Source: Owenia fusiformis
Lineage: Eukaryota > Annelida > Polychaeta > Sabellida > Oweniidae
Length of the DNA stretch: 64,000 nt
Assembly (NCBI GenBank): GCA_903813345.2
Contig: CAIIXF020000001.1
Coordinates: forward strand, 60,746,270 to 60,810,269
Direction: 5' to 3'
A program made the position numbers and the translations under genes. Below are positions 22,301 to 54,319 of the stretch, in pieces (positions within the stretch are counted from its first letter, which is position 1; each line of letters opens with the position of its first letter). The notes beneath the pieces are model-generated. The model saw only the letters and a list, made by a program, of their open reading frames with translations, searched no databases and was not told where the DNA came from.

Positions 22301-25300
22301 ACAATGAACTAAAGACCAAGAATAGGAAAAAGAAACCAACAAAATTCTGTAAAATACTATTTGAAAACAAAGCAGTAGAAGTAATCAACATTGCAAATAT
22401 CTTAAGAGATGAAGAAGTGATCAAGACAATACCTTCAAGTATCAAAAATAAGGAACCACCAGGAATTGTCTATATATACACAAAGCCAATAAGGAATAAA
22501 TTGTTCAACTATAGTGAGATTACAGAAAGTATCGACGAAGGCAACAATACAGGAGAATGTGATTGTAATACATCTGAATTTAAGGATGAAGACCATGGTC
22601 ACGTCATAACAGGAAATCTGAAGATTATACAAAATTCAAAATTGAGAAAGCTATTTAGTAAAGGTCCTGGCTATAGAGAAAAACGAAACATTAACTTCAG
22701 GAAAGCAAAAGAAGAAATAAAGAAAGGAATAGATGAATATGCAATAAGTTGGACAAAAAATGAAAAAGTTTCAAAAGTATACTTAAATGAATGGAAAAAT
22801 ACTGTAATGGAAAAGGTTAAACAAAAGATTGAGTTACTTCAAAATACAAAATTTAGACATATTAAAAATCCAAAGCAGACACTAAAGGACCATAATGCTA
22901 TGGAAGAACTCAATCAACTCAAGGAAAAATATGCCATTGTACCTATTGATAAGGCAGCAAATAATATTGGGTTTATGTGCAAACAATACTACATAAAGAA
23001 GATTAAAGAGGAAATTGGGAGTGACACCTATCAAAGGATAGAAGATAAAGGAGAAGAAGATATAGTGGAGGAAATCAAAGAGACAATGAAAACAAAATTC
23101 AAGATTGAACTGGGAGAAGAACAAAATATTATACCAAGGATTCATCTTACAATTAAAATGCATAAACAGCCAATTAAATTTAGATATATCATTGGCTCAA
23201 AGAAAAGTTCTGTAAAACCAGCTGCCAAAAAACTGACCAAAATTCTTAAACTAGTGCAATATACTAACAAAAGATACTGTGAGAAGATTAAGGATTATAC
23301 AGGTGCCAATAGGATGTGGATCAGTGACAATAACCAAAATATGTTAGATAACATTAAAAGTGTAAATTTAAGGAACGGGGCAAGAAACATAGCCTCGTAT
23401 GATTTCTCTACACTATACACAAAGATTAATCTAACTGACATAAAGGAAAAACTGAAATGGGTGATAGATAAAGCCTTCAGAGGAGGAACTAACCAAAAGA
23501 TAACAGTAGGTGGAGATGAAGCCAAATGGGGTGGAAAGGCGGATAATAAAAAGGCATATACCAAAGGAGAGTGTAATGATCTAGTGGATTTCATCGTGGA
23601 TACAGCCTACTTTAAAGCAGGGAAATCAATTCTAAGACAGAAAATTGGAATACCAATGGGAATCGATCCGGCGCCATATATGGCAAACCTATACTTATAC
23701 AGTTATGAATTTCAAGCCATTGAGAAAATGTATAGGGAAGACTACTCCAAAGTACTAAAATATGCTAAAACTACAAGATTCATCGATGATTTATGTACTA
23801 TAAACAACGACGGAGAAATGGAGACTGATATGAAGAACATCTATCCTGAAGAACTAGTGTTAAACAAGGAAAATGAGAAGGATACAGAAACAACTTTTCT
23901 GGACATACAAATGAAAATAGTAAATAAACAAATCACTACAAAACTATACGACAAAAGGGAAAACTTCAATTTCCAAATAGTCTCATATCCTGATCTATCT
24001 GGAAATATTCCTAGAAACCAATCTTATGGAATATTTATATCACAAATAATAAGGATTTCAAGAATCTGCAGTCAACTGGAAGATGCAACAAACAGAGTTA
24101 CCAGCCTGGGAAATAAACTACAATGTCAAGGCTACAGGAGCAACATACTAAATTCGTATACTAAGAAAGCTATAACAAGAAATAAATGGATATGTACTAA
24201 ATACAATATGCAGGAGAATATCATCATGAAGGACTGGAAAATTAATGAGAGAAGAGAACATTAACAAATGAATGTGAAACAGTATCTTCTCCGCAAAGAG
24301 GGTAAACTAAGAGGACAAATCAGCATAAGACCAACAGTAAGGGGAAGGGGAGAGTTTTCCGGCCGGATCAAAACGTTTAACCCACCTATGCGCAGTCTCA
24401 AGTCTGTGGACCCTGAAGAAAGATAAGTAACATCGCAATCAAATCAAGACAAAGAAAGAAGAAAATGAATGAAGAAACCAATGCAGCAACAACAAATGAC
24501 GTCCGTCCGTCCGTCCATCCGTCCGGGCAATAACTCAAATACCGTTAGCCCAATTTTGTTCATATTTTGTACACATATACCCTATGGGGGAAGAAGTTCT
24601 GCTCGGAAGCTGATTTTCAAAATGGCCGCTCATTTAAAAATGGCGGCCATTTTAGTGCCGATTTTACAGTAATTTATGTGAAATATGTAAAACTGTTATA
24701 GGAATATGTTTTAAATGTAAAAAAAATTACATAGGACATTAATAAAGCTAGAAATGTAGATATTAAAGAAGCACATGGCAGCCATCTTGAAAAATGGCGG
24801 CCTTTACTCATTATTTTACGATTTTTGCTGTAACTCGAAAAGTAGTGGAGCGATTTTGTTCATATTTGGTATGTGAGTACTATAAGCATGGCACACTGTC
24901 TACACACTGTAACACTTTTGGTAGAAGGCGGCCATTTTTCAAAATGGCCGCCATTTTAACGTATTTTACTATAATTCGAAAAGTAGTGGAGCGATTTTGT
25001 TCATATTTGGTATGTGAATACTATAAGCATGGCACACTGTCTACACACTGTAACACTTTTAGTAGAAGGTGGCCATTTTTCAAAATGGCCGCCATTTTAA
25101 TGTATTTTACTATAACTCGAAAAGTAGTGGAGGATTTTGTTCATATTTGGTATGTGAATACTATAAGCATGGCACACTGTCTAATGACACTTTTAGTAGA
25201 AGGCGGCCATTTTTCAGAATGGCCACCATTTTAACGTATTTTACTATAACTCGAAAAGTAGTGGAGTGATTTTGTTCATATTTGGTATGTGAATACTATA

Positions 25301-29387: not shown

Positions 29388-30116
29388 TGGGCGCGTAATG
29401 ACCCTGGATACCAAAGTGCTTAAGCTTTTATAGCTCAGTTTATAGCACAATCCTTGGATCATAAGGGTCATACGAGGGGCGTACCCAGCTTTCAGTCAGG
29501 GGTGTGCGATCGCCAAAAAAATTCGGTTTTCAGTCAGGGGGATGTGATTGTGGCATAAACAAGCCAAAATCTTCGGATTTATCTTGAATTTTATAAAAAT
29601 TGATGCAACTTCCTTCAAAATTGCTATGTCATGGTTATATTTTTATTGGTTATGGTGGGGTGCCCCCCTGGCTACACGTATGGTCATAGGTTTGATTCCC
29701 ATACAGGCACTGAATTTTGCATTTGAGTAACTTTATAATGTTTCTCTGTTTACTTGAATATCATTATAACATTACATGTATGGAATAGAAACAGTATTCA
29801 AAATGCAATTGTTGTCTAACATTGCTATAATTTATCAATGCTGTGTGGGTTCAGACAATGTGATGATTGAAGCAGGATGCCTGTTATAATAGTCAGCCCT
29901 TTATGACTTTGCGAAGGAGTTCGGTGGAAGTTCAGTTAGATTATGTACTCTAACAGGGTGTTAATAAATAATTAGAACAATGTAATAATTCCCTTTATAC
30001 CAACTCAGTAAAGGACTTTATCTATGAACCATTTAAGAAAAATGTTGGGCCTAAATAGTAAATGAAATCATGTCAGATATCAATTTGGCAACTACTGAAA
30101 ATGTCACAAACTATGC
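29388..30116. other. promoter side of secreted-peptide gene; possible MITE at 29475-29685
   Basis: No gene is seen. 29475-29685 is bounded by GAGGGGCGTACCCAGC and, inverted, CATACGTGTAGCCAGGG, both next to poly-G runs, so it is probably a small G-rich transposon remnant. Ends and target duplication are uncertain. Confidence 0.4.
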
Positions 30117-32345
30117 CTAGTACCAGATGCCACTCAACATGACTTATATCAAAGATGCCACTCAACATGGCTAATATTAAAGATGCCACTCAACATGACT
30201 TGTACCAGATGCCACTCAACATTGTTAGTACCAGATGCCACTCAACATACCTAGTACCAGATGCCACTCAACACACCTAGTATCAGATGCCACTCAACAT
30301 GGCTAGTACCAAATGCCACTCAACATGGCTAATGTCAAAGATGCCACTCAACATTGCTAATATTAAAGATGCCACTCAACATGACTTGTATCAGATTCCA
30401 CCCAATATGGCTAATATCAAAGATGCTACTCAACATGGCTAATATCAAAGATGCCACTTAACATAACTAGTATCAGATTCCGCTCAACATGGCTAGTACC
30501 AAATGCCACTCAACATGGCTAATATCAAAGATGCCACTCAACATGGCTAATATCAAAGATGCCACTTAACATAACTAGTATCAGATTCCGCTCAACATGG
30601 CTAGTACCAAATGCCACTCAACATGGCTAATATCAAAGATGCCACTCAACATGGCTAATATCAAAGATTCCACTCAACATGACTTGTACCAGATGCCACT
30701 CAACATGACTTGTATCAGATTCCGCTCAACATGGCTAGTACCAAATGCCACTCAACATTGCTAGTACCACCAGATGCCACTCAACGTGGCTAGTACCAAA
30801 TGCCACTCAACATGGCTAGTACCAGATGCCACTCAACATGGCTAGTACCAAATGCCACTCAACATGGCTAGTACCACCAGATGCCACTCAACATGGCTTA
30901 TATCAAAGATGCCACTCAACATGGCTAGTACCAGATGCCACTCAACATGGCTAGTACCAAATGCCACTCAACATGGCTAATATCAAAGATGCCACTCAAC
31001 ATGGCTAGTACCAGATTCCGCTCAACATGGCTAGTACCAAATGCCACTCAACATGGCTAATATCAGAGATGCCACTCAATGACCTGTACCATATTTCACT
31101 CAACATGGCTAGTACCAGATGCCACTCAATGTGGCTAGCACCAGACGCCACTCAACATGGCTAGTACCAGATGCCACTCAATGTGGCTAGCACCAGACGC
31201 CACTCAACATGGCTAGTACCAGATGCCACTCAACATGACTAGTACCACCAGATGCCACTCAACATGGCTAGTACCAGATGCCACTCAATGTGGCTAGCAC
31301 CAGACGCCACTCAACATGGCTAGTACCAGATGCCACTCAACATGACTAGTACCACCAGATGCCACTCAACATTGCTAGTACCAGATGCCACTCAACATTG
31401 CTAGTACCAGATGCCACTCAACATGGCTATTACCAGATTCCACTCAACATGCCTAGTGCCAGATGCCACTTAACATGCCTAGTACCACAAGATACCACTC
31501 AACATATCTGGTATCAAGGATGTCATATAACATGGTTAGTGTCAAAGATCTCAAACAGGTTGACAACATTACTAGTATCAAAGATGACACAACATTGCTA
31601 GTATCAAAGATGACTTGACATGACTTGTATCAAAGATGGTAAAACATGGCTTGTATCAAATATGACACAACGTGGGTGATACCAAAGGTGACACGACATG
31701 GCAAGTATCAAAGAAGACACACCATGACTAGTATCAAAGATGACACAACATGCCTAGTATCAAAGAAGAGACACCATGACTAGTATCAAAAATGTTGCAC
31801 AAGGTTGATATCAAAGATGATACAACTTACCTAGTATAGTTGTCACATAACACAGCCAGTATCCTATATCACATAGCATTGCAGCATGGTTAATATCAAG
31901 ATGACACAACATGACTAGTATCAAAGATGTCATACAGCATGGCTAGTATCAAAGATGATACGCCATGGCTAGTATCAATGATGACACAACATGGCTAGTA
32001 TCAAATATGTCATTCAACATTACATGGCTAGTATCAAAGATGTCACACAACATGGCTAGTATTAAATATGACATAACATGGCTAGTATCAAAGATGTCAC
32101 ACAACATGGCTAATATCAAAGATGACACGCCATGGCTAGTATCAATGATGACACAACATGGCTAGTATCAAATATGTCATTCAACATCACATGGCTAGTA
32201 TCAAAGATGTCACACAACATGGTTAGTATCAAATATGACATAACATGGCTAGTATCAAAGATATCACACAACATGGCTAGTATCAAAGATGTCGCACAAC
32301 ATGGCTAGTATCAAATATGGCACAGCATGTCTAGTATCAAACATG
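30117..32345. repeat. 2.2-kb minisatellite, 26-28 bp units
   Basis: About 80 tandem units. The left two thirds use TAGTACCAGATGCCACTCAA followed by CATGGC (26 bp), alternating with TAATATCAAAGATGCCACTC (28 bp). From about 31500 the unit changes to a GACACAACATGGCTAGTATC form with TCAAAGATG. Blocks of three to five units are re-duplicated (for example 30460-30560 resembles 30540-30640). It has no coding meaning. Confidence 0.95.
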
Positions 32346-32737
32346 TACCCAGAATGGGAATATTTGAATATGTCCGTGGCTAGGGTCAAAGATGCCACAC
32401 GCCATAGATCAGATGAAAGAACAGAAGAATCTAAATTGAAGCTTATAAATAAAAAAGGCTAGGGTAAATAAATAAATGGTAAACATATCTTTTCTATTTT
32501 CATACTGAATATTGAACAAGGTTCATGTATGAAAACGATCTGATTTAAAAGCTATTTTGATATATTTAAAATGACCATGACATAATTATGCTTCATAATC
32601 AAGCGAAAAATTGGTGTCAAATTAATTTTTTGAAAATAAAAGTCATTGATCGCCGATATTCTTTCTTATTATTGCTCTTTCAATAGACAATTTTTTAATT
32701 TTCGTATGTTTTCGCTAAAATGTTGCTAATTATTATT

Positions 32738-32901
32738 AGACTCCAGATTGAAAATCTGGAGTCTATTGCTTTTGCCAGTTTTCTTTATTAGACTCCAGAT
32801 TGAAAATCTGGAGTCTATTGTTTTTGCCTGTTTTCTTTATTATTATTATTATTATTAGACTCCAGATGAAAATCTGGAGTCTATTGCTTTTGCCAGTTTT
32901 C
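32738..32901 (+). repeat. three stacked 5' leaders of the 1.72-kb repeat family
   Basis: Three head-to-tail copies of a leader start with the hairpin GACTCCAGATT-GAAA-ATCTGGAGTC at 32739, 32791 and 32858. Each is followed by TATTGYTTTTGCCWGTTTTC and TTATT repeats. The third hairpin lacks one T. Only the last leader is next to a body. Confidence 0.9.
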
Positions 32902-35106
32902 TTATTATTATTATTTTTCTTTCTTCCTCTTCCTCCTTACAAGATTTCTCACCAACTAGAAGAACTTACTTTAAGCTACTTACATGATCAACTAGGGAAT
33001 GTATCTGGGATGATGGGAAATTAGGTCAAATTTTTATCTAGGTCAAAGGTCAAGAACTAGGTCAAATCCAGTACTTTGTCACTTTTTTCAATTTTCTCGG
33101 TCGTCCTTCAATATTTTCAATCCGGGTTTTTTTCATTGTGTTCCTCATAAAAAAGTAGGGGAAAACTGGTCGATTTAGTTTTTTGATATCTCAAACCGAT
33201 TTCGAGATATCAGTGTCCGAAAACGAGGTCCAAAAAAAAGTTCTCCCAATTCAATGTCCACGCTACTGGTCTTGTAGTAAATTTTCTCAGGATTCCGAAT
33301 CTGAAAACCAAATTTCGATCCGACTTCCGGTTCGGAAGTAATATCGTTTTGAAAGCTCAAAAATCGCTAAATTTGGTGCCCATGTTAAGTCAATGGGAAA
33401 AAAGATTTTTTTGAAGTGAAAAATACGAAATATAGACTGAGTTCAGCTAAATATAATGGAAGCTTTTAAAAGAAGGGGACCTCAAAAGCCATCTAGCTTA
33501 AAAATTTGGACACAAAAATGCCAAGGTCAAAATCTAGGTCAAATTCAAAGTTTTTCCTTATTTTTGCGATTCTGACACTACACTTTAATTATATTCTTCA
33601 AAATTGTGTATACATGTAGCCAAGAGTGTGCTAATAGTGTTAGCCTTTTGCCGTCAGGAAGTATTTTGACCCACTTTTGAGATATGGTGTCCCAAAAGTA
33701 GGTCAAAATAAAAAATTCTTCAAATTTAACTTATGAGTTATGAATCAGGGGTAGAATTTTGTCAGGAATCAGAATCTGCAAATCATATTTCGATCCGACT
33801 TCCGGTTCGGAAGTTATGGCGTGTCCAAAAAGTAGGTCAAAATAAAAAAATTCTAAATTTAACGTATGAGTTATGAATTAGGGGTAGAATTTTGTCAGGA
33901 ATCCGAATCTGCAAACCAAATTTCGATCCGATTTCCCGTTTGAAAGTTATGGCGTTTTGAAATTTCGAGAAAAATCGATCTGATGTTATCCTGATTGAAA
34001 GTCAAGGAAAAAAGATTTTTTTGAAGTGTAAAATACGAGATATAGATTGAGTACAGCTTAAGATAATGAATTCCTATAAAAGAAGGGGACCTCAAAAGCT
34101 ACCTAGTTTCAATATATGGACACCAAAATGCCTAGGTCAAAATCTAGGTCAAATTCATAGTTTTTCCTTATTTCTGCGATTCTGGCACTACACTTTTAGG
34201 ATTTGCTTCAAAATTTTGTATACAGGTAGCAAAGAGTGTGCTAATAGTGTTTGCCTTTTGCCGTCAGAGAGTATTTTGACCCACTTTTGAGATATGGTGT
34301 CCGAAAAGTAGGTCAAAATAAAAAATTCTCCAAATTTAACATATGAGTTATAAATTAAGAGTAGAATTTTCTCGGGAATCCGAATCTGCAAACCAAATTT
34401 CGATCCGACTTCCGGTTCCAAAGTTATGGCGTGTACGAAAAGTAGGTCAAAATAAAAATTCGCCAAATTTAACGTATGAGTTATGAATTAGGGGTAGAAT
34501 TTTGTCAGGAAAAAAGAAGGGGACCTCAAAAGCTACCTAGTTTCAATATTTGGACACCAAAATGCCTAGGTCAAAATCTAGGTCAAATTCATAGTTTTTC
34601 CTTATTTTTTCGATTCTGGCACTACACCTTTAGGATTTGCTTCAACATTTTGTATACAGGTAGCAAAGAGTGTGCTAATAGTAAAAGCCTTTTGCCGTCA
34701 GAAAGTATTTTGACCCACCTTTGAGATATGGTGTTCGTAAAGTAGGTCAAAATAAAAAGTTCTCATAATTTAACTTATGAGTTATGAATTAAGGGTAGAA
34801 TTTTCTCAGGAATCCAAATCTGCAAACCAAATTTCAATCCGACTTCCGGTCAAAAATTCCTACTTACCTACCTACTTACCTACTCGGCTACCTACTTAGC
34901 TACCTACTCAGCTACTTACTCAGCTACCTACTCAGCTACTTACTCAGCTACCTGCTCAGCTGCTTACTCAGCTACCTACTCAGCTACTTACTCAATTACT
35001 TAATCATTTACTTACTCAGCTTCCTACTCAGTTACTTACTCAGCTCTTTACTCAAGTAAATCAATCTGGAGTCTTAAATTGAACTTTGTTCAATTTACCA
35101 ATCTAG
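32902..35106 (+). repeat. array unit 1 (divergent)
   Basis: The most diverged body. It holds extra copies of the internal subrepeat and, at 34860-35055, a 12-bp minisatellite (core CTACCTACTCAG / CTACTTACTCAG) absent from other units. A perfect DR1 word lies at 33040-33052. Its 3' hairpin has an additional T in the loop. Confidence 0.85.
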
Positions 35107-36826
35107 TTATTATTATTCTTCCTCCTCACCAAATTTCTCGTCAACTATAACAGCTTACTTAATCCAACTTACATGGTTAACTAAAGACTGAAACCGGCTT
35201 TCTGGGAAATTAGGTCAAATTTTTATCTAGGTCAAAGGTCAAGAACTAGGTCAAATCTTACATTTTCAACATTCTTCATCATATCTTCGTCAATATTCTT
35301 CGTAACTCCTTCATCTTTTTTTCATCGTGTAGCTTAGAAAAAGGCGAATCAAAGATATGACATCAGAATTTTGATTACTCCTACCGATTTTGAGATATGG
35401 CGTCCGAAATGTAGGACACGCCTAAACATGCTCCAAATTGAATGTGTGAGCTATGAGAAAGATGTAGAATTTTCTCAGGAATCTAAATCTGCAAACCAAA
35501 TTTGGATCGGACTTCCGGTTCGGAAGTTATGGCGTTTTAAAAGCTCAAAAATCGCTAAATTTGGTGCCTATGTTAAGTCAATGGGAAAAAAGACTTTTTC
35601 GAAGTGTAAAATACAGGATATAGACTGAGTACAGCTTAACATAATGAATGCTTATAAAAGAAGGGGTCCTCAAAAGCTACATAGTTTCAAAATTTGGACA
35701 CCAAAATGCCTAGGTCAAAATCTAGGTCAAATTCATAGTGTTTCCTTATTTTTACGATTCTGACACTACACTTTAATAATTTACTTCCAAATTTTGTATA
35801 CAGGTAGCAAAGAGTGTGCTAATAGTGTTAGCCTTGTGCCGTCAGAAAGTATTTTGACCCACTTTTGAGATATGGTGTCCGAAAAGTAGGTCAAAATAAA
35901 AAGTTCTCCAGATCCAACGTATGAGTTATGAATTAAGAGAAGAATTTTCTCAGGAATCCGAATCTGCAAACCAAATTTCGATCCGACTTCCGGTTCGGAA
36001 GTTATGGCGTGTCCAAAAAGTAGGTCAAAATAAAAAAATTCCAAATTTAACGTATGAGTTATGAATTAGGAGTAGAATTTTGTCAGGAATCCGAATCTGT
36101 AAACCAAATTTCGATCCGACTTCCGGTTCGAAAGTTATGACGTTTTGAAAGCTCAAAAATCGCTAAATTTGGTGCCCCATGTTATGTCAATGAGAAAAAG
36201 GATTTTTTGAAGTGTAAAATACCAGATATAGACTGAGTACAGCTTAATATTCTGAAAGCCTATAAAAGGAGGGGACCTCGAAGGCTATCTAGCTTTAAAA
36301 TTTGGACGCAAAAATGCCTTGGTCAAAATCTAGGTCAAATTCATAGTTTTTCCTTATTTTTGCGATTCTGACATTACACTTTAAGGATTTGCTTCAAAAT
36401 TTTGTATACAGGTAGCAAAGAGTGTGCTTATAGTGTTAGCCTTCTGCCGTCAGAAAGTTTTTTGACCCACTTTTGAGATATGGTGTCCGAAATGTAGGTC
36501 AAAATAAAAAATTCTCCAAATTTAACGTATGAGTTATGAATTAAAGGTAGAATTTTCTCAGGAATCAGAATCTTTAAACCAAATTTCGATCTAACTTCTG
36601 GTTAGATAGTTATAGCGGTTTGAAGTCTCGAAAAGTCGATATGATGATATCCCCATGTTAAGCTAATAGAGTCGAAGATAGCCTTCTTAAAAGTTGTCTA
36701 AATGTCTATATTCTAGCTGACTCAGCTTATTCTGAATGACTCAGCTTACAAGTTCTGGATGACTCAGCTTAAAAAAAGTTTTTAATCTGGAGTCTTAAAT
36801 TGAACTTGTTCAATTTACATGTCTAG
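35107..36826 (+). repeat. array unit 2
   Basis: A body without its own adjacent leader, entered from TTATTATTATT directly after the CTAG of unit 1. DR1 word at 35229-35241. Confidence 0.85.
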
Positions 36827-36834
36827 TTATTATT

Positions 36835-36937
36835 AGACTCCAGATTGAAAATCTGGAGTCTATTGCTTTTGCCAGTTTTCTTTATTATTAGACTCCAGAT
36901 TGAAAATCTGGAGTCTATTGTTTTTGCCTGTTTTCTT
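36835..36937 (+). repeat. two stacked 5' leaders
   Basis: Hairpin leaders begin at 36836 (GCTTTTGCCAG variant) and 36891 (GTTTTTGCCTG variant), inserted in the TTATT tract that follows the CTAG of unit 2. Confidence 0.88.
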
Positions 36938-38672
36938 TATTATTATTATTTTTCTTTCTTTTTTCTTCCTCCTCACCAAATTTCTCGTCAACTATAACAG
37001 CTAACTTAATCCAACTTACATGGTTAATTAAAGACTGAAACCGGCTTTCTGGGAAATTAGGTCAAATTTTTATCTAGGTCAAAGGTCAAGAACTAGGTCA
37101 AATCTTACATTTTCAACATTCTTCATCATATCTTCGTCAATATTCTTCGTAACTCCTTCATCTTTTTTTCATTGTGTAGCTTAGAAAAAGGCGAATCAAA
37201 GATATGACATCAGAATTTTGATTACTCTTACCGATTTTGAGATATGGCGTCCGAAATGTAGGTCACGCCTAAACATGCTCCAAATCGAATGTGTGAGCTA
37301 TGAAAAAGATGTAGAATTTTCTCAGGAATCCAAATCTGCAAACCAAATTTGGATCGGACTTCCGGTTCGGAAGTTATGTTGTTTTGAAAGCTCAAAAATC
37401 GCTAAATTTGGTGCCTATGTTAAGTCAATGGGAAAAAAGACTTTTTCGAAGTGTAAAATACAGGATATAGACTGAGTACAGCTTAACATAATGAATGCTT
37501 ATAAAAGAAGGGGACCTCAAAAGCTACATAGTTTCAAAATTTTGACACCAAAATGCCTAGGTCAAATTCTAGGTCAAATTCATAGTGTTTCCTTATTTTT
37601 ACGATTCTGACACTACACTTTAATAATTTACTTCCAAATTTTGTATACAGGTAGCAAAGAGTAAGCTTATAGTGTTAGCCTTTTGCCGTCAGAAAGTATT
37701 TTGACCCACTTTTGAGATATGGTGTCCGAAAAGTAGGTCAAAATAAAAAGTTCTCCAGATCCAACGTATGAGTTATGAATTAAGGGTAGAATTTTCCCAG
37801 GAATCCGAATCTGCAAACCAAATTTCGATCCGACTTCCGGTTCGGAAGTTATGGCGTGTCCAAAAAGTAGGTCAAAATAAAAAAATTCCAAATTTAACGT
37901 ATGAGTTATGAATTAGGGGTAGAATCTTGTCCGAAATCCGAATCTGCAAACCAAATTTCGATCCGACTTCCGGTTTGAAAGTTATGGCGTTTTGAAAGCT
38001 CAAAAATCGCTAAATTTGGTGCCCCATGTTATGTCAATGAGAAAAAGGATTTTTTGAAGTGTAAAATACCAGATATAGACTGAGTACAGCTTAATATTCT
38101 GAAAGCCTATAAAAGGAGGGGACCTCAAAGGCTATCTAGCTTTTAAATTTGGACGCAAAAATGCCTTGGTCAAAATCTAGGTCAAATTCATAGTTTTTCC
38201 TTATTTTTGCGATTCTGACATTACACTTTAAGGATTTGCTTCAAAATTTTGTATACAGGTAGCAAAGAGTGTGCTTATAGTGTTAGCCTTCTGCCGTCAG
38301 AAAGTTTTTTGACACACTTTTGAGATATGGTGTCCGAAATGTAGGTCAAAATAAAAAATTCTCCAAATTTAACGTATGAGTTATGAATTAAGTGTAGAAT
38401 TTTCTCAGGAATCAGAATCTTTAAACCAAATTTCGATCTAACTTCTGGTTAGATAGTTATAGCGGTTTGAAGTCTCGAAAAGTCGATATGATGATATCCC
38501 CATGTTAAGCTAATAGAGTCGAAGATAGCCTTCTTAAAAGTTGTCTAAATGTCTATATTCTAGCTGACTCAGCTTATTCTGAATGACTCAGCTTACAAGT
38601 TCTGGATGACTCAGCTTAAAAAAATGTGGAATCTGGAGTCTTAAATTGAACTTGTTCAATTTACATGTCTAG
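36938..38672 (+). repeat. array unit 3
   Basis: Preceded by the 36891 leader. Very similar to unit 2. DR1 word at 37076-37088. Confidence 0.85.
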
Positions 38673-38683
38673 TTATTATTATT

Positions 38684-38792
38684 AGACTCCAGATTGAAAA
38701 TCTGGAGTCTATTGTTTTTGCCTGTTTTCTTTATTATTATTATTAGACTCCAGATTGAAAATCTGGAGTCTATTGTTTTTGCCTGTTTTCTT
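38684..38792 (+). repeat. two stacked 5' leaders
   Basis: Hairpin leaders begin at 38685 and 38746, both of the GTTTTTGCCTG variant, in the TTATT tract after unit 3. Confidence 0.88.
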
Positions 38793-40527
38793 TATTATTA
38801 TTATTTTTCTTTCTTTTTTCTTCCTCCTCACCAAATTTCTCGTCAACTATAACAGCTTACTTAATCCAACTTACATGGTTAACTAAAGACTGAAACCGGC
38901 TTTCTGGGAAATTAGGTCAAATTTTTATCTAGGTCAAAGGTCAAGAACTAGGTCAAATCTTACATTTTCAACATTCTTCATCATATCTTCGTCAATATTC
39001 TTCGTAACTCCTTCATCTTTTTTTCATCGTGTAGCTTAGAAAAAGGCGAATCAAAGATATGACATCAGAATTTTGATTACTCTTACCGATTTTGAGATAC
39101 GGCGTCCGAAATGTAGGTCACGCCTAAACATGCTCCAAATCGAATGTGTGAGCTATGAAAAAGATGTAGAATTTTCTCAGGAATCCAAATCTGCAAACCA
39201 AATTTTGATCGGACTTTCGGTTCGGAAGTTATGGCGTTTTGAAAGCTCAAAAATCGCTAAATTTGGTGCCTATGTTAAGTCAATGGGAAAAAAGACTTTT
39301 TTGAAGTGTAAAATACAGGATATTGACTGAGTACAGCTTAACATAATGAATGCTTATAAAAGAAGGGGACCTCAAAAGCTACATATCTTCAAAATTTGGA
39401 CACCAAAATGCCTAGGTCAAAATCAAGGTCAAATTCATAGTTTTTCCTTATTTTTACGATTCTGACACTACACTTTAATAATTTACTTCAAAATTTTGTA
39501 TACAGGTAGCAAAGAGTGTGCTAATAGTGTTAGCCTTTTGCCGTCAGAAAGTATTTTGACCCACTTTTGAGATATGGTGTCCGAAAAGTAGGTCAAAATA
39601 AAAAGTTCTCCAGATTCAACGTATGAGTTATGAATTAAGGGTAGAATCTTCTCAAGAATCCGAATCTGCAAACCAAATTTCGATCCGACTACCGGTTCGG
39701 AAGTTATGGCGTGTCCAAAAAGTAGGTCAAAATAAAAAAATTCCAAATTTAACGTATGAGTTATGAATTAGGAGTATAATTTTGTCAGGAATCCAAATCT
39801 GCAAACCAAATTACGATCCGACTTCCGGTTCGAAAGTTATGGGGTTTTGAAAGCTCAAAAATCGCTAAATTTGGTGCCCCATGTTATGTCAATGAGAAAA
39901 AGGATTTTTTGAAGTGTAAAATACCAGATAAAGACTGAGTACAGCTTAATATTCTGAAAGCCTATAAAAGGAGGGGACCTCGAAGGCTATCTAGCTTTAA
40001 AATTTGGACGCAAAAATGCCTTGGTCAAAATCTAGGTCAAATTCATAGTTTTTCCTTATTTTTGCGATTCTGACATTACACTTTAAGGATTTGCTTCAAA
40101 ATTTTGTATACAGGTAGCAAATAGTGTGCTTATAGTGTTAGCCTTCTGCCGTCAGAAAGTTTTTTGACCCACTTTTGAGATATGGTGTCCGAAATGTAGG
40201 TCAAAATAAAAAATTATCCAAATTTAACGTATGAGTTATGAATTAAGGGTAGAATTTTCTCAGGAATCAGAATCTTTAAACCAAATTTCGATCTAACTTC
40301 TGGTTAGATAGTTATAGCGGTTTGAAGTCTCGAAAAGTCGATATGATGATATCCCCATGTTAAGCTAATAGAGTCGAAGATAGCCTTCTTAAAAGTTGTC
40401 TAAATGTCTATATTCTAGCTGGCTCAGCTTATTCTGAATGACTCAGCTTACAAGTTCTGGATGACTCAGCTTAAAAAAATGTGAAATCTGGAGTCTTAAA
40501 TTGAACTTGTTCAATTTACATGTCTAG
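38793..40527 (+). repeat. array unit 4
   Basis: Shares private variants with unit 5: CCAGATAAAGACTGAG, AAAATCAAGGTCAAATT and GTTATGGGGTTTTG. DR1 word at 38931-38943. Confidence 0.85.
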
Positions 40528-42260
40528 TTATTATTATTATTCTTTTTTCTTCCTCCTCACCAAATTTCTCGTCAACTATAACAGCTTACTTAATCCAACT
40601 TACATGGTTAACTAAAGACTGAAACCGGCTTTCTGGGAAATTAGGTCAAATTTTTATCTAGGTCAAAGGTCAAGAACTAGGTCAAATCTTACATTTTCAA
40701 CATTCTTCATCATATCTTCGTCAATATTCTTCGTAACTCCTTCATCTTTTTTTCATCGTGTAGCTTAGAAAAAGGCGAATCAAAGATATGACATCAGAAT
40801 TTTGATTACTCTTACCGATTTTGAGATACGGCGTCCGAAATGTAGGTCACGCCTAAACATGCTCCAAATCGAATGTGTGAGCTATGAAAAAGATGTAGAA
40901 TTTTCTCAGGAATCCAAATCTGCAAACCAAATTTGAATCGGACTTCTTCCGGTTCGGAAGTTATGGCGTTTTGAAAGCTCAAAAATCGCTAAATTTGGTG
41001 CCTATGTTAAGTCAATGGGAAAAAAGACTTTTTCGAAGTGAAAAATACAGGATATTGACTGAGTACAGCTTAACATAATGAATGCTTATAAAAGAAGGGG
41101 ACCTCAAAAACTACATAGCTTCAAAATTTGGACACCAAAATGCCTAGGTCAAAATCAAGGTCAAATTCATAGTTTTTCCTTATTTTTACGATTCTGACAC
41201 TACACTTTAATAATTTACTTCAAAATTTTGTATACAGGTAGCAAAGAGTGTGCTTATAGTATTAGCCTTTTGCCGTCAGAAAGTATTTTGACCCACTTTT
41301 GAGATATGGTGTCCGAAAAGTAGGTCAAAATAAAAAGTTCTCCAGATTCAACGTATGAGTTATGAATTAAGGGAAGAATTTTCTCAGGAATCCGAATCTG
41401 CAAACCAAATTTCGATCCGTCTACCGGTTCGGAAGTTATGGCGTGTCCAAAAAGTAGGTCAAAATAAAAAAATTCCAAATTTAACGTATGAGTTATGAAT
41501 TAGGGGTAGAATTTTGTCAGGAATCCAAATCTGCAAACCAAATTACGATCCGACTTCCGGTTCGAAAGTTATGGGGTTTTGAAAGCTCAAAAATCGCTAA
41601 ATTTGGTGCCCCATGTTATGTCAATGAGAAAAAGGATTTTTTGAAGTGTAAAATACCAGATAAAGACTGAGTACAGCTTAATATTCTGAAAGCCTATAAA
41701 AGGAGGGGACCTCGAAGGCTATCTAGCTTTAAAATTTGGACGCAAAAATGCCTTGGTCAAAATCTAGGTCAAATTCATAGTTTTTCCTTATTTTTGCGAT
41801 TCTGACATTACACTTTAAGGATTTGCTTCAAAATTTTGTATACAGGTAGCAAAGAGTGTGCTTATAGTGTTAGCCTTCTGCCGTCAGAAAGTTTTTTGAC
41901 CCACTTTTGAGATATGGTGTCCGAAATGTAGGTCAAAATAAGAAATTATCCAAATTTAACGTATGAGTTATGAATTAAGGGTAGAATTTTCTCAGGAATC
42001 AGAATCTTTAAACCAAATTTCGATCTAACTTCTGGTTAGATAGTTATAGCGGTTTGAAGTCTCGAAAAGTCGATATGATGATATCCCCATGTTAAGCTAA
42101 TAGAGTCGAAGATAGCCTTCTTAAAAGTTGTCTAAATGTCTATATTCTAGCTGACTCAGCTTATTCTGAATGACTCAGCTTACAAGTTCTGGATGACTCA
42201 GCTTAAAAAAAATGTGAAATCTGGAGTCTTAAATTGAACTTGTTCAATTTACATGTCTAG
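40528..42260 (+). repeat. array unit 5
   Basis: No adjacent leader. Nearly a duplicate of unit 4. DR1 word at 40660-40672. Confidence 0.85.
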
Positions 42261-43982
42261 TTATTATTATTATTCTTCCTCCTCACCAAATTTCTCGTCA
42301 ACTATAACAGCTTACTTAATCCAACTTACATGGTTAACTAAGGACTGTATCCGGCTTTCTGGGAAATTAGGTCAAATTTCTATCTAGGTCATAGGTCAAG
42401 AACTAGGTCAAATCGTTGATTTTCACTAATTCACCACTTTTCTCAGTCGTCTTTCAATATTTTTGCTCCGGGTTTTTTTCATCATGTTCCTTGGAAAAAA
42501 CGCTAATTCCGATGGCAAATCGTTTTTTGATTACTCTTACCGATTTTGAGATATTGCGTCCGAAAAGTAGGTCAGAACAAAAAACTCTCCAAATTCAACA
42601 TGTGAGTTATGAAATAAGTGTAGAATGATCTCAGGAATCCGAATCTGCAAACCAAATTTGGATCGGACCTCCGGTTCGGAAGTTATGGCGTTTTGAAAGC
42701 TCAAAAATCGCTAAATTTGGTGCCTATGTTAAGTCAATGGGAAAAAAGACTTTTTCGAAGTGTAAAATACAGGATATTGACTGAGTACAGCTTAACATAA
42801 TGAATGCTTATAAAAGAAGGGGACCTCAAAAGCTACATATCTTCAAAATTTGGACACCAAAATGCCTAGGTCAAAATCTAGGTCAAATTCATAGTTTTTC
42901 CTTATTTTTACGATTCTGACACTACACTTTAATAATTTACTTCAAAATTTTGTATACAGGTAGCAAAGAGTGTGCTAATAGTGTTAGCCTTTTGCCGTCA
43001 GAAAGTATTTTGACCCACTTTTGAGATATGGTGTCCGAAAAGTAGGTCAAAATAAAAAGTTCTCCAGATTCAACGTATGAGTTATGAATTAAGGGTAGAA
43101 TTTTCTCAGAAATCTGAATCTGCAAACCAAATTTCAATCCGACTTCCGGTTCGGAAGTTATGGCGTGTCCAAAAAGTAGGTCAAAATAAAAAAATTCCAA
43201 ATTTAACGTATGAGTTATGAATTAGGGGTAGAATTTTGTCAGGAATCCGGATCTGCAAACCAAATTTCGATCCGACTTCCGGTTCGAAAGTTATGGTGTT
43301 TTGAAAGCTCAAAAATCGCTAAATTTGGTGCCCCATGTTATGTCAATGAGAAAAAGGATTTTTTGAAGTGTAAAATACCAGATATAGACTGAGTACAGCT
43401 TAATATTCTGAAAGCCTATAAAAGGAGGGGACCTCGAAGGCTATCTAGCTTTAAAATTTGGACGCAAAAATGCCTTGGTCAAGATCTAGGTCAAATTCAT
43501 AGTTTTTCCTTATTTTTGCGATTCTGACATTACACATTAAGGATTTGGTTCAAAATTTTGTATACAGGTAGCAAAGAGTGTGCTTATAGTGTTAGCCTTC
43601 TGCCGTCAGAAAGTTTTTTGACCCACTTTTGAGATATGGTGTCCGAAATGTAGGTCAAAATAAAAAATTCTCCAAATTTAACGTATGAGTTATGAATTAA
43701 GGGTAGAATTTTCTCAGAAATCAGAATCTTTAAACCAAATTTCAATCTAACTTCTGGTTAGATAGTTATAGCGGTTTGAAGTCTCGAAAAGTCGATATGA
43801 TGATATCCCCATGTTAAGCCAATAGAGTCGAAGATAGCCTTCTTAAAAGTTGTCTAAATGTCTATATTCTAGCTGACTCAGCTTATTCTGAATGACTCAG
43901 CTTACAAGTACTGGATGACTCAGCTTAAAAAAAGTTTTAAATCTGGAGTCTTAAATTGAACTTGTTCAATTTACATGTCTAG
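42261..43982 (+). repeat. array unit 6
   Basis: No adjacent leader. The first third (TGTATCCGGCTTTCTGG, TTGATTTTCACTAATTCACC) is a different subtype, shared only with unit 7. DR1 word AGGTCATAGGTCA at 42386-42398. Confidence 0.85.
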
Positions 43983-45696
43983 TTATTATTCCTCCTCACC
44001 AAATTTCTCGTCAACTATAACAGCTTACTTAATCCAACTTACATGGTTAACTAAGGACTGTATCCGGCTTTCTGGGAAATTAGGTCAAATTTCTATCTAG
44101 GTCGTAGGTCAAGAACTAGGTCAAATCGTTGATTTTCACTAATTCACCACTTTTCTCAGTCGTCTTTCAATATTTTTGCTCCGGGTTTTTTTCATCATGT
44201 TCCTTGGAAAAAACGCTAATTCCGTAGGGCAAATCATTTTTTGATTACTCTTACTGATTTTGAGATATTGCGTCCGAAAAGTAGGTCAGAACAAAAAACT
44301 CTCCAAATTCAACATGAGAGTTATGAAATAAGTGTAGAATGATCTCAGGAATCCGAATCTGCAAACCAAATTTCGATCCGACTTCCGGTTCGGAAGTTAT
44401 GGCGTTTTGAAAGCTCAAAAATCGCTAAATTTGGTGCCTATGTTAAGTCAATGGGAAAATAGACTTTTTCGAAGTGTAAAATACAGGATATAGACTGAGT
44501 ACAGCTTAACATAATGAATGCTTATAAAAGAAGGGGACCTCAAAAGCTACATAGTTTCAAAATTTGGACACCAAAATGCCTAGGTCAAAATCTAGGTCAA
44601 ATTCATAGTGTTTCCTTATTTTTACGATTCTGACACTACACTTGAATAACTTACTTCCAAATTTTGTATACAGGTAGCAAAGAGTGTGCTAATAGTGTTA
44701 GCCTTTTGCCGTCAGAAAGTATTTTGACCCACTTTTGAGATATGGTGTCCGAAAAGTAGGTCAAAATAAAAAGTTCTCCAGATCCAACGTATGAGTTATG
44801 AATTAAGGGTAGAATTTTCTCAGGAATCCGAATCTGCAAACCAAATTTCGATCCGACTTCCGGTTCGGAAGTCATGGCGTGTCCAAAAAGTAGGTCAAAA
44901 TAAAAAATTTCCAAATTTAACGTATGAGTTATGAATTAGGGATAGAATTTTGTCAGGTATCCGAATCTGCAAACCAAATTTCGATCCGACTTCCGGTTCG
45001 AAAGTTATGGCGTTTTGAAAGCTCAAAAATCGCTAAATTTGGTGCCCCATGTTATGTCAATGAGAAAAGGGATTTTTTGAAGTGTAAAATACCAGATATA
45101 GACTGAGTACAGCTTAATATTCTGAAAGCCTATAAAAGGAGGGGACCTCGAAGACTATCTAGCTTTAAAATTTGGACGCAAAAATGCCTTGGTCAAAATC
45201 TAGGTCAAATTCATAGTTTTTCCTTATTTTTGCGATTCTGACATTACACTTTAAGGATTTGCTTCAAAATTGTGTATACAGGTAGCAAAGTGTGTGCTTA
45301 TAGTGTTAGCCTTCTGCCGTCAGAAAGTTTTTTGACCCACTTTTGAGATATGGTGTCCGAAATGTAGGTCAAAATAAAAAATTCTCCAAATTTAACGTAT
45401 GAGTTATGAATTAAGGGTAGAATTTTCTCAGGAATCAGAATCTTTAAACCAAATTTCGATCTGACTTCTGGTTAGATAGTTATAGCGGTTTGAAGTCTCG
45501 AAAAGTCGATATGATGATATCCCCATGTTAAGCTAATAGAGTCGAAGATAGCCTTCTTAAAAGTTGTCTAAATGTCTATATTCTAGCTGACTCAGCTTAT
45601 TCTGAATGACTCAGCTTACAAGTTCTGGATGACTCAGCTTAAACAAAGTTTGAAATCTGGAGTCTTAAATTGAACTTGTTCAATTTACATGTCTAG
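43983..45696 (+). repeat. array unit 7
   Basis: Same subtype as unit 6, with the DR1 word degraded to AGGTCGTAGGTCA. Its CTAG at 45693-45696 is followed by TTATTATG and then unique sequence, so the array ends here. Confidence 0.85.
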
Positions 45697-49203: not shown

Positions 49204-51863
49204 TTATTGAATGGGACCTTCGGTATAATTCGCAGCTCCTGGTATTTCCACATTTTCTTTCTCCGTTGCCTCCTTGAGCTCCGCGGCTTTCTCCTTCATT
49301 TCTCTTCTTTCTTCTATCAATCGTCTTTGTTTCTTTCTCTTCACAAAACGCTTCCATCTGCGCACCGCCTTGATGGCCAAACTTACATTGAAGAAATTTA
49401 TCTTACGCCTGAAGGCCTGGTGGAAAACTTTATCCCACGCTGATACGGTTTTGGCTACCTTTCTCTTCACCTAAAAAGATTGGAAGCCCATTTAATACAT
49501 ATTTAATGTATTTTGCCAAACGTATTGAGTTTGCTTTAACAATAATTAACAACGCTTAGCTAAGTATAGTTAATCATGTGCTTGAAATTTCTTCAAGTTC
49601 ATGGTCTACTATTGATATCTCTAGGGATTCAATACATTCTGGATCTCATGCCGAGTGGGACTGGGTAGTGGGTATACACCTCCAAACGTATAGCAACCAG
49701 AACCCCCACCCCGATTAAACCTGTTGGTGATTTAGAAAAAGTCACCAAGTATGTCTTTCTTAACTGAAATGAATGTTATAATTGAAAAAAGAACAAAATG
49801 AAGATTAAAACATCAGATACGCTTTAACAAGCTTGCAGAAGAGTTCCCATTTCCAAAGGTTTTTACTATAAAATACGTAGATACCTTATTAGCTTTATCT
49901 GTCCACTGTTTAGGAAGTGACATTTCTACTTCCTCTTTTATCTGCTTGTTGTGGCTGAGATAGACCAGTGGTTTGATGACCCACCAGATGTCCACTATTA
50001 ATACACCTGTAGTCCACCAACCCGACCATGTCTCAACGGACGATGTAAAAACCTTAAAACAAATCGGCGGTATTCAACATATGTAGACAGACCTGGAGCA
50101 ATATACCTTATGCCGTGATCTATTTTGTAGGATAGTCTTACTAGAGAATACCATCAAGCTGAGCTTCATTGAACAAGTTGTCAGTGATAGTTTAATTGCA
50201 TATTTGATACAGCTAAATGGTAAAAAATCGCAAGGACTATATAATTCTGCATCAAGTTCAGCTGCACATTTACCTAGTTTAGCTTATTTTAGTTGTTTTT
50301 AAATGGTGCTTTCCTCGACGAAATGTTGCCTTTCTAGTCTGAGCAAAATATGTTTGATATAGTAGTTGTAAGGATATAGAAATGCACAATGTATGTGTTT
50401 ACCTTGTAAAGGACAATGCCAACGAACGGGGCCCAGGTGAGCAGGGCAAACACCCAGATCAAGAGGACTGTGAACGCAAAGTGGAACTCTTTATGTTGGT
50501 CATCCAGTTCGCCTAAAGTGAATATCTTTTCCCTTTCACTCGCTAACTTCTTCCATCGCTTATTCCCTTTTTGTATTTTGGAGATCTGAAAGTATGATAT
50601 TTAATGAGGTTCTATCGGTCATCCTGCTTCTGTTTGTTACAAAATGACTGGCAGCGGCACTGCTTACTGGCAGCTCCACCATATATGGGAAATACTGATT
50701 TTAAAACAGACACATAAATCGTTCACGAATTCATTATGAGAAATTATACGCGGCCTTCTTAGTTATTCTCCAGAATAAAACTGAAAGCTAGAGAACAAAA
50801 AGATGTGATGCGTATCAGAATGATACTGCTTTGATGAATAATAAAATATAAATCAAAAGAGTTGATTGAGAATCACAATTGAAAGCTTTACCTTAGGTTT
50901 CTCTTCAATGACTGATGGTTTTGTAGCAAGTTCAACACGCGGGGATTCTGCTTCAACGTCATCAACAGTTAATGTAGTTTCCTTTGATCCCATTGAATCT
51001 TTAGATGAGCTCTTTGGTCTTTCTTTCTCATTTTTCAAGTCAGCCATTTTAATAAGGTTTTGCGTGGAGCCTTTGGAAGATCCTTCTGAGGGACTGGCCT
51101 CTCTGATGAGAGACCGTCGTTTGTGAATAATAATAGACATGGTGACGATTCCAAATATAATAGGGATGAAGTATCCATACACCAAGTAGAGGATTGTGTT
51201 AATCATGTCCTGGACGAAGTCTATGTTACACTGGTACTGAGAAGGATGGTAGGCGATGGGGGCAGTAAGTCCCCAAAGCGGGATGGACGCAACGACACCA
51301 TTGAAAACCCAACTGCCAACAATCATGACTAGCACTATTGTGGAATTCCCAAATATTTTAGTATGATGATTTGGATAACAAACCACTAGACATCTCTCCA
51401 TGCTGAGTAACATTAGGCCTGTGAAGCTATTCAAAAATATCATTTCCACAAAATATCCATGGACGTAGCAAAAGCCGAAAAAGCCTTGCTCGAGTGACGC
51501 CACAGACGCTATACCAGATGGAATCCCAACGACGCTGATAGCTATTAAATCAATTACTAATAAGTTTATGGTTAGCTTACAAACTGGTTCAGAAAATTTC
51601 TTCAGCTTCTTGCACATATGAAGATAGGCTCCGTTGAGGGCCGATGAAACGATGAGGACGACAACCTTGAGGATGAAAATCAGATATGGTAGCAGGTTCT
51701 TCTTTAGGAACTCGAAGAATGGTTCAGCATATGCGCTTATGAAGTTAAAATCATCCGCGCCAGCACCAGCAATACTGCCAGTTGTGTTGACGCTACTGGC
51801 GGTTGTGGCATTCGCGTTGCTCATGATGGTGGAGTTGATGCTACTCACTGTTGTGGCGTTCAT
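49204..51863 (-). CDS. class A (rhodopsin-like) orphan GPCR (4 exons)
   Basis: Seven-helix plasma-membrane receptor; ligand unknown. Exons: 51863-50892, 50585-50403, 50052-49885, 49470-49204 (1590 nt, 529 aa; phases agree). The N-terminus is Asn/Ser/Thr-rich with several N-glycosylation sequons. TM1 58-81; TM2 97-121 with Asp105; TM3 132-156 with Cys132 and ERC in place of DRY; TM4 with Trp185; Cys212 in ECL2 for the disulfide; TM5 220-245 with a proline; a long ICL3 (246-357); TM6 358-383 with LTWAP for CWxP; TM7 ending KPLVY (412-416) in place of NPxxY. The opsin retinal-lysine position aligns to Asp, so it is not an opsin. The tail is strongly basic and helical (KRFVKRKKQRRLIEERREMK). The stop codon overlaps an AATAAA word. 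A 5' non-coding exon may exist upstream. Confidence 0.88.
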
Positions 51864-54319
51864 ATTGCTGATGTTAGTAGAAACGGTTCTGTGAATTACG
51901 TCGTTACGAATTATGTTTTACAAAATCTACATTTCTCCAGTTCATCCATCTTGATTAAGTGTTAACTAAAGGGCTTTCACCTCTACTTTATTGTCGTTTG
52001 CTACATTTTTTTGTAAATTCTCTGCTATTGTGGGAAACCTGTATTATTCCATTTCATGCGTTCTTCCACTAAGATAAAGTTATAAAATGGCCTGATCTTT
52101 GCACAATCGTAGATTAACTTGGGTCAGATCAAAACATTTTATTCTAATACTGGATTACAGGATTATTACTATTAGCAATTGCATTGTGGGTGGATTGTTA
52201 ATACTTAAGTTAATCCCATCCGATGGCAAGTTTGACAATGAACTTGTGCAACATATTCACCCTTAAGTTGAACGTGTCTTGGAAGCACAAACAGGATTAA
52301 CAAATATTCATTGTCGCTTGTTAAAACCTGTGGATAAACAGAATTGCTTGAGTGAAAGGTCGGGAATCAGGAGCTCGGGTATTTAACAGACCTGTTAACT
52401 TATCTTTTTAAGGTGATCTAGAATACTGTTTTTAGTCTACTTTACTTGTCCATTAAATTGGACTTTCAACAACTTAGAAATATCAAAAATAATATGAATT
52501 TCACATAAATGTAAATGGAATAAATGGTCGGTGTGCAAATAACTGGCAAAAATAGTTTTTAAAATAAAACTTAAGTTTGCTGGAAAGTTATAGTTTTTGG
52601 TAGAATATTAATGTATCTTTATAAAATGTACCGGAAAATATCTTACTGATTATCTTAAAGATAGCTTCATCCACCAAGTCTCCTGACACTTCTAGGCTAT
52701 TAGTGTAGCACTTGGAGAAGTGGGTATGTGGTTTCACGATTTGTACAATCATTCTACTGTAACGCCATCTTTATTTCCATGGGGAATGTTTATGATCGAT
52801 TACTCTCATAAACCCAAAAGAAAAGGAATAAAAACAAATTCATATGAGATTCCTTATTGACATTTATTTATTACAAACATGTACTTAACATGTTTTGGAC
52901 GGAATAAAATAATGAAAAATAATAAGACAGATCTAGTGGAGAAATGTAGGCTAACAGAAGACTTGATATAATCATAACAAAGATCAATTACATTGTTAAA
53001 TGATTGTAATACGACTATAACTATTAAAGTTCTCCATTGGAACTTAGCATTTTCTTCTACTGTACACATGTTTATACAAATAAGTTCATACTTTTACAAA
53101 ATAATTATTTACAAAGTTACAATAGTTCTGTCCTATTCACATTTTTATATACAAACTTGATTTGGCATCTAAAGATTTAAAACAGAAACATTGTAATTGA
53201 AAATTAACTTTCATGTACAGGGTGATCCAAAATATGGAACCCTCTAATTTTGAATAACATTCATAATTTTGGTGGTATCTTCTTGCAATTAGAGGTTGGC
53301 ATTTTGGGCCAACCTGTACATGTAGTCATATAGTTTTCAACTCTTCCTGAGAGAAATGAGATCTTAAGTTTGTCTATTATGCAATAACTAGTTAACAGTA
53401 CAGGACGTGCAATAAGAAAGTTAATTTTGCTCTTAAATGTTTTGTTATCAATATTATTATCTCAAACTTTCACAATACATCTTCAAATATTCAACTTTGC
53501 CCATTGAATACCCTATACTTCCATACAAATGTAGTTTGAACAAAGCACATGAGAAATCAAACTAACATAACTAATAAATGTGAAGATAATTACTCTAGGA
53601 CATTAAATATATAATGTGCTTCACAGAAACACAAGCTTTTTTCAAATACATGGTTCATTAAATCACAAAATACAAACAAACAGAACAAAAGCACACTATG
53701 GCACTCTGCCCATATTGCAACATGCACTTATGGATAATTGAGATCTTGCTAAAGATTTTGAAATGATATTAAAAAATGAAACAGATACAGAGACAGGGAG
53801 GACATCTTAATGTTTATGTCTGTTTGATACCCAACGAATGTTCTGCATTGAACCTTTAACAATTTTTGCTTTACTATTTTGTGTCATGTTGTCATAAAGT
53901 TGTGAGTGTATTAAAAAAGAAGTATCATTGAATGGGAGTTCTTTCCAAATTAATTTTTCAAAAGGTGAAGTAGCATATAGTTTTATACCACGTTCTTTAC
54001 ATCATTAAAATTTTAATGAAATTGTTGATTGGCTTACCTAACCTCCCCATTCTCTCCAACTAAGTCAAAGTGAAAGTATAGACATTTGCTTTATAGAGAT
54101 TCAAAGAAAATATTCAGATTCAAAAATAAAATAAATGGTTCATGTATAATAATAGTAAACAAGAAATCAGCACCTTCTAATATATCTACAATATTTACAA
54201 TTTATAAATGAGATGACTACAGACCTAAATATGAATGTTATTTTCGTGTAAATAATATAATGAGATATTGCTCGTTGAAGTGATCACATCCACACCTTTG
54301 GAGTTGTATATCCAATTCT
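51864..54319. other. intergenic DNA and probable long 3' UTR of the mucin-like gene
   Basis: No coding exon is supportable. On the minus strand an AATAAATAAA signal lies near 52860-52875, about 1.45 kb past the mucin-like stop, and could end its 3' UTR. The MITE at 53216-53318 lies inside. The 5' flank of the GPCR gene is at the left end. Confidence 0.5.
53216..53318. mobile_element. 103-bp TA-flanked MITE
   Basis: Left end TACAGGGTGATCCAAAAT; the right end, inverted, is TACAGGTTGGCCCAAAAT. A TA pair at each end fits a mariner-type duplication. Confidence 0.7.

Follow-up and report, generated by a model that had tools for sequence, protein, structure and literature searches.

How could seven left ends and seven right ends of one repeated element come to lie interleaved within a single 13-kb array? 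The array in question is located in the genome of the annelid Owenia fusiformis, in a stretch of 64,000 nucleotides (contig CAIIXF020000001.1, positions 60,746,270 to 60,810,269 of the forward strand; hereafter the window). It spans window positions 32736-45696 and is made of seven hairpin leaders carrying GACTCC, seven bodies and seven 3' ends closing with CTAG, all on the + strand. When leaders are written as opening brackets and ends as closing brackets, the order is ((())(()(()))), with none left open. A preliminary description, made from the letters of the DNA, had reported this balanced string and proposed that copies inserted repeatedly at the TTATT that follows the leader of an earlier copy; the element would thus bring along a landing site and build arrays by nesting. 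Junctions, an empty site, the target motif and the matching of partners all agree with this mechanism, which is very probably right. In all likelihood, the arrays were built by serial, same-orientation insertion of Helitron-like copies into the TTA tract behind earlier leaders.

The string was recovered in full, in the order first described. The depth had also been said to return to zero where unique DNA resumes, and the flanks on both sides indeed have no match at the 28 other loci that were read. A TTA or TTATT tract lies behind every leader of the window, and every inner copy is placed within such a tract. BLAST with one leader and two whole copies detected no further copy in the 64-kb window. 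The balance sounds like the strongest part of the nesting case and is nevertheless its weakest. A random string of seven openings and seven closings is balanced once in 8, and the chance is 0.46 if the string must start with a leader and stop with an end; equal counts and balance alone are therefore weak evidence. The case is carried by the partner matching, the target motif and the empty site.

To which elements do these units belong? Each is arranged as 5'-TTAGACTCC hairpin leader, TTA tract, body with tandem repeats, 3' subterminal inverted repeat (subTIR), hairpin, CTAG-3'. Leader L4, the sole leader folded, forms a strong hairpin (z = -6.4; 0/200 shuffles as good), and two 3' ends fold moderately (z -1.9 and -3.1). 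HINE elements have subTIRs of 11-15 bp, palindromic in some families; here the 5' copy is GACTCCAGATT, within the hairpin, with one arm short by one T in L3, and the 3' copy is AATCTGGAGTC. The 3' stem-loop of HINEs corresponds to TAAATTGAACTTGTTCAATTTA, found ahead of CTAG in 7/7 ends (with one extra T in E1), and their left-module microsatellite and optional central tandem repeats correspond to the TTA tract and to the body repeats of ~608 bp and 133 bp. Most bodies are ~1.7 kb long. The CTAG of 7/7 window ends, with its upstream hairpin, agrees with the 3' CTRR end of Helitron-like elements in the broad sense; the genome end scan required CTAG, and its 75 ends give no test of this feature. 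Another broad Helitron-like feature, an A/T insertion that leaves the target unduplicated, was seen at the empty site. The latter allows A^T (^ marks the insertion point), or T^A should one T belong to the element, and departs from the TT dinucleotide of HINEs. A canonical Helitron (Helitron1) was rejected, as the 5' terminus is TTAGACTCC and not 5'-TC. No open frame longer than 99 codons exists in the array, a protein search with a chance open reading frame of a body gave no match, and exact-motif scans of viral contigs and prokaryote genome contigs gave none either. On this anatomy, the array units are very probably non-autonomous Helitron-like (Helentron-group) elements of HINE type, forming one superfamily. 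The preliminary description knew of no named element of this kind; that view does not hold, since HINE or Helitron2-type anatomy fits and Helitron self-insertion has already been published (PMC5148889; statements on cited papers refer here and below to the parts of them that were available).

The insertion site could be read at locus L014 (G000:C3:18335287-18345286), where an array breaks up a tandem satellite whose unit is 714 bp long. Four intact unit junctions read CCTATTATAATTTTTGC; at the filled site, CCTATTA is joined to TTAGACTCC on the left and CTAG to TAATTTTTGC on the right. The empty sites that the preliminary description had suggested looking for are thus represented by a clean A^T insertion that neither duplicated nor removed any base, one T being assignable to either side; the four junctions are copies in one satellite array and count as one site evolutionarily. 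Across the 29 loci (the window and the other 28), TTA precedes GACTCC in 101/101 leaders scanned, the base before TTAGACTCC is A in 100 of these 101, and T follows CTAG in 75/75 ends. Outer sites read TTA^TTAT, with TTA on the left in 17/21 cases and TTAT on the right in 9/10, against a background of 0.084 and 0.027, respectively, at the 10,610 A^T sites of the window. The tract behind the leader repeats this same motif. None of the 75 ends lies on the opposite strand. TT targeting, tried as the cause of this fixed orientation, was rejected, the site being A^T.

From these data, a sequence of events can be proposed. Elements would insert between A and T, preferring TTA^TTAT, and the tract behind the leader would receive new copies since it is a run of this motif; its preference over other TTA microsatellites is putative. 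Copies would share one orientation because the other strand of TTA^TTA reads TAA^TAA. Each insertion would part the leader of the host copy from its body, giving the order leader-leader-body-end-body-end, and repeated insertion would produce a stack in which the last leader in closes first. Transposition itself would be of the rolling-circle type, with Rep/helicase supplied in trans and, as for Helitron-like elements in the broad sense, a circular intermediate. The genome contains 58 Helitron_like_N matches, many of them in open frames of ~3,000 residues (e.g., on C505, C13 and C515) and several sharing one small contig; these are possible autonomous Helitrons, and their presence suggests that a source of Rep exists in O. 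fusiformis. An autonomous Helentron with matching termini would be the expected partner of a HINE; at the two loci read (~3.6 kb each around the domain), no leader or end was found near a Helitron_like_N domain.

Nesting makes a prediction on which leader belongs to which body. Window leaders form three exact sequence classes (2, 4 and 1 members); sorted by 5' module, window bodies also form three classes, equal in size to these. Bracket partners agree in class in 7/7 cases, an outcome given by 1 of 105 class orders; with the three pairs that are physically adjacent taken as given, the figure is 1 of 6. Partner matching, rather than balance, is what exceeds chance in the window. For all loci together, the correspondence between leader type and body type was set from 42 intact leader-body pairs. 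In this test, for which classes were defined after the sequences had been seen, P and Q were merged (the two Q bodies of the window thus being scored as misfits) and split bodies without an open split leader were left out, the leader class fitted the bracket-partner body with a log-odds (LOD) score of 17.9 for 37 split bodies and of 17.7 for the 33 outside the window; in both cases, 0/20,000 shuffles reached the score. At 19 choice sites, last-in-first-out pairing scored 8.3, first-in-first-out pairing -11.9 and random pairing -4.9 on average, with 78/20,000 random choices reaching 8.3. P bodies accompany beta leaders in 6/7 intact pairs, window included. The alpha-Q pairs of the window are consistent with nesting and are not strong proof of it, as the link is non-exclusive elsewhere. 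An objection that the split bodies of the window are short of part of the pyrimidine tract was dropped, the same variants being present elsewhere, at split junctions as well as in intact elements.

These data also bear on the possibility that rolling-circle replication produced the tandem array in one event, by bypass of an end or from a truncated circle template, as has been suggested for centromeric plant Helitrons. The element class is the same, and tandem Helitron arrays are known (PMC12628747, PMC8268682). However, in many plant arrays multiple 5' ends go with only one 3' end, whereas 7/7 bodies here have a 3' end; 4/7 window bodies have no adjoining leader, and different subfamilies nest within each other. 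A one-event origin is disfavoured and appears most improbable.

Is the window array an isolated case? Scans of the genome detected 962 exact leaders, 1030 leader tails and 580 leader-to-leader junctions (the pattern for the latter being looser than that for leader tails, 580 against 1030 is no strict fraction), as well as 53 junctions from end to body, counting a single body type, and 35 from end to leader, counting a single end type. Reversed-pattern controls gave 0 in every case. Leaders were located by a regular-expression scan; a hidden Markov model of the leader loses strand information because the leader is palindromic, and the minority-strand openings in the output are the same palindromes. 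The census covered the window and 28 fetched loci, 20 of which (L009-L028) came from a two-leader query; the other eight (L029-L036) are a systematic pick from the ~58 clusters into which the exact leaders on C1 were grouped manually. Eight further fetches of 2.0-3.1 kb each (L001-L008) were dropped from the locus counts: L001 and L005 lie inside the window, L002, L007 and L008 inside L009, L010 and L011, respectively, and L003, L004 and L006 are separate.

The preliminary description had proposed looking for solo copies and asking whether other clusters are balanced. Solo copies exist (L030 and L033). Among complete arrays, those running off the fetched stretch being excluded, 9/12 are balanced with the window and solo copies included (L010, L017, L021, L022, L024, L030, L033, L036 and the window), and 7/10 without the two solo copies. 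L022 is doubtful, the DNA past its last end looking body-like by eye and its 5' flank being common to three other loci; without it, 8/11 are balanced. Balance is therefore common and not general. What follows an end was counted in 20 arrays whose start is known and whose 5' flank is common to at most two other loci, "unique" DNA being that which matches fewer than three of the other loci read. While leaders were open, 24 ends led into a body, 1 into unique DNA and 8 into a leader; with no leader open, the counts were 5, 8 and 1, respectively (Fisher test for body or unique DNA, 2e-4; 1.2e-3 without the window). L031, completed later, contributes two bodies, at depths 1 and 0, and unique DNA at depth -1. 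Subfamilies of bodies that differ in their 5' modules are nested within each other (L010, L016, L018, L021, L024, L025 and others), and the landing site is therefore common to them.

The locus is highly repetitive and is known here from the assembly rather than from reads, and five 714-bp units of L014 are 100% identical, as might be expected if longer repeat arrays had been collapsed or misordered. The published O. fusiformis assembly, presumably the same one, combined an optical map and Hi-C with PacBio reads, the N50 of which was 25.75-30.75 kb (PMC9977687). Against that read N50, the array measures 13 kb, and the same junction types are found again across chromosomes. We consider an assembly error very unlikely to account for the array.

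Several observations weigh against serial insertion as we propose it. Three complete arrays are unbalanced: L014 (two leaders, three ends; taken as complete given satellite DNA on both sides, though its last flank was labelled body-like), L035 (three leaders, two ends) and L031 (three leaders, four ends), the latter with two leaderless bodies in succession that have near-identical starts and with one end in surplus. In L011, L012 and L026, bodies follow ends at depth 0 or below. The two-leader query biased its 20 loci to nested cases. Partner class misfits occur in L011 at 5397, L013 (two), L026 at 3750, L027 and L028 at 7155. Intact Q bodies have one alpha leader (L017, the tract of which is short, as in B7) and one beta leader; split P bodies have four beta and one alpha, and split Q bodies two alpha (both in the window) and one beta. 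A class-free version of the pairing test, in which split bodies without an open split leader were again left out, points in the same direction more weakly, with summed distances of 26 for last-in-first-out, 46 for first-in-first-out and 35.5 on average; 1316/20,000 random choices did at least as well as last-in-first-out, and the top of the stack was best or tied in 11/18. In the window, the order of insertion ages from private changes fits partially, and bodies beyond column 400 do not track P and Q, B4, B5 and B6 clustering together.

Could unequal exchange or slippage between TTA tracts, which would change the numbers of leaders and of body-end units independently, have built the arrays and left the window balanced by coincidence? 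The surplus end and leaderless pair of L031 and the imbalance of L014 and L035 would fit such a process; so would the 5'-module likeness of neighbouring window bodies (a fraction of 0.022 of 720 orders being as close), which the remainder of the body does not share (0.247), and the signs of exchange that bodies bear. However, exchange predicts neither a stack-like matching of leaders to bodies, contrary to the data, nor a tie between open depth and what comes after an end, nor a clean A^T empty site. Simulated exchange gave balanced and class-consistent arrays in 0.7-7.6% of runs, and in 0.06-0.7% when at least four split pairs were required as well, an outcome that depends on the assumed event sizes. 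Exchange as the origin of the arrays is thus improbable. It has nevertheless contributed. Body sequence past the 5' module ignores the P and Q classes and has thus been exchanged within the window array too, and the tandem-like leaderless bodies of L031 indicate that tract-mediated exchange also shapes arrays. Adjacent leaders of ~50 bp were likely lost or gained in this way as well.

Known systems share parts of this picture. HINE or DINE-1 elements (non-autonomous Helentrons; PMC4067079, PMC7492417) have palindromic subTIRs, a left-module microsatellite, central tandem repeats, a 3' subTIR, a 3' palindrome, no target duplication and no coding capacity in common with the Owenia family. They prefer TT, whereas the Owenia family inserts between A and T, and nesting into their own microsatellite is not mentioned in the available parts of these descriptions. 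The proto-Helentron of Phytophthora infestans (PMC4067079) has 5'-TT...CTAG-3' termini and A/T insertion in common; it differs in being ~14 kb long and encoding Rep/helicase, and palindromic subTIRs and a TTA tract go unmentioned in the text available. FoHeli, a Helitron2 of Fusarium oxysporum, shows self-insertion, multiple 5' termini, hairpins and asymmetric inverted repeats, and nesting was proposed as a possible source of its multiple termini (PMC5148889). It differs in presenting one nested case and short 5' duplications, the parts seen describing neither partner-matched arrays nor the own tract as target. Plant tandem Helitrons (Xiong et al., via PMC12628747 and PMC8268682) also form head-to-tail rolling-circle arrays; the multiple 5' and single 3' ends of many of them are ascribed to truncated circles, whereas Owenia bodies keep their 3' ends. 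Lepidopteran Hel-2 (PMC4344730) shares a microsatellite behind the 5' subterminal repeat and differs in that nested arrays are not described in the part available.

Helitron tandem arrays have mainly been attributed, in the literature accessible to us, to replication or recombination events. In the Helentron and Helitron literature on nesting, self-insertion, microsatellites and tandems, serial insertion into the own internal microsatellite was not found described, coverage being partial and absence unproven. In Owenia, the evidence of several hundred junctions favours plain site-specific insertion, the target being the element's own microsatellite; order and partner can both be read in the sequence. 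This offers a testable explanation for the microsatellite carried by HINE-type elements and a natural setting in which transposition events can be ordered. One lepidopteran Helitron superfamily is said, from work by Coates in 2010, to disrupt (GAAA)n microsatellites. More tentatively, the TTA tract might be a retained trait, a landing pad by which new copies are steered into earlier copies rather than into host DNA and so find a safe haven; we hold this to be possible and somewhat doubtful. If true, each array would be a stack-ordered record of insertions, the relative order of which could be read from one genome.

Table 1. Parts of the array, in window coordinates.
Feature	Class	Span	Strand	Motif start	Remarks
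Leader L1	alpha	32736..32787	+	GACTCC 32739	Partner B7; 5' terminus of outermost element; TTA+GACTCC hairpin; upstream flank unmatched elsewhere
Leader L2	beta	32788..32839	+	GACTCC 32791	Partner B2
Leader L3	gamma	32855..32904	+	GACTCC 32858	Adjoins partner B1
Body B1		32905..35106	+	CTAG 35103 (E1)	Diverged, 78-79% to others; 2.2 kb; additional partial ~608-bp repeat; 3' subTIR, hairpin, CTAG end 35103-35106
Body B2	P	35107..36826	+	CTAG 36823 (E2)	Nested copy lies between B2 and its own leader
Leader L4	alpha	36833..36884	+	GACTCC 36836	Partner B6
Leader L5	beta	36888..36939	+	GACTCC 36891	Adjoins partner B3
Body B3	P	36940..38672	+	CTAG 38669 (E3)	
Leader L6	beta	38682..38733	+	GACTCC 38685	Partner B5
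Leader L7	beta	38743..38794	+	GACTCC 38746	Adjoins partner B4
Body B4	P	38795..40527	+	CTAG 40524 (E4)	Two ~608-bp repeats
Body B5	P	40528..42260	+	CTAG 42257 (E5)	
Body B6	Q	42261..43982	+	CTAG 43979 (E6)	
Body B7	Q	43983..45696	+	CTAG 45693 (E7)	3' terminus of outermost element, then DNA unmatched at other loci

The L014 satellite extends throughout that locus, with its five complete identical units and the element array inside. Another array starts at 9416 and does not differ from the first for 584 bp; satellite and array therefore seem to have been amplified as a higher-order repeat. The 714-bp unit has a hairpin at its start and a stretch in common with element bodies, and related units flank the arrays in L026 and L011. 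In the window, long tandem repeats based on a 26-bp unit (ATGGCTAGTACCAGATGCCACTCAAC) occupy 30113-32346 and stop ~400 bp before the array. Other features of the window include a 998-codon open frame at 21268-24264 (+) without Pfam match, which by eye resembles retroelements of Penelope type, and a reverse transcriptase domain (PF00078) in an open frame at 61198-62550 (-). A small nucleolar RNA of snoU85 type (Rfam RF01296) was detected at 10018-10307 (-), near an exon-like frame with a Band_7 domain at 10700-10921. Finally, the window has at 50853-51917 a receptor-like open frame, 92% of the length of which matches an O. fusiformis protein with 100% identity.

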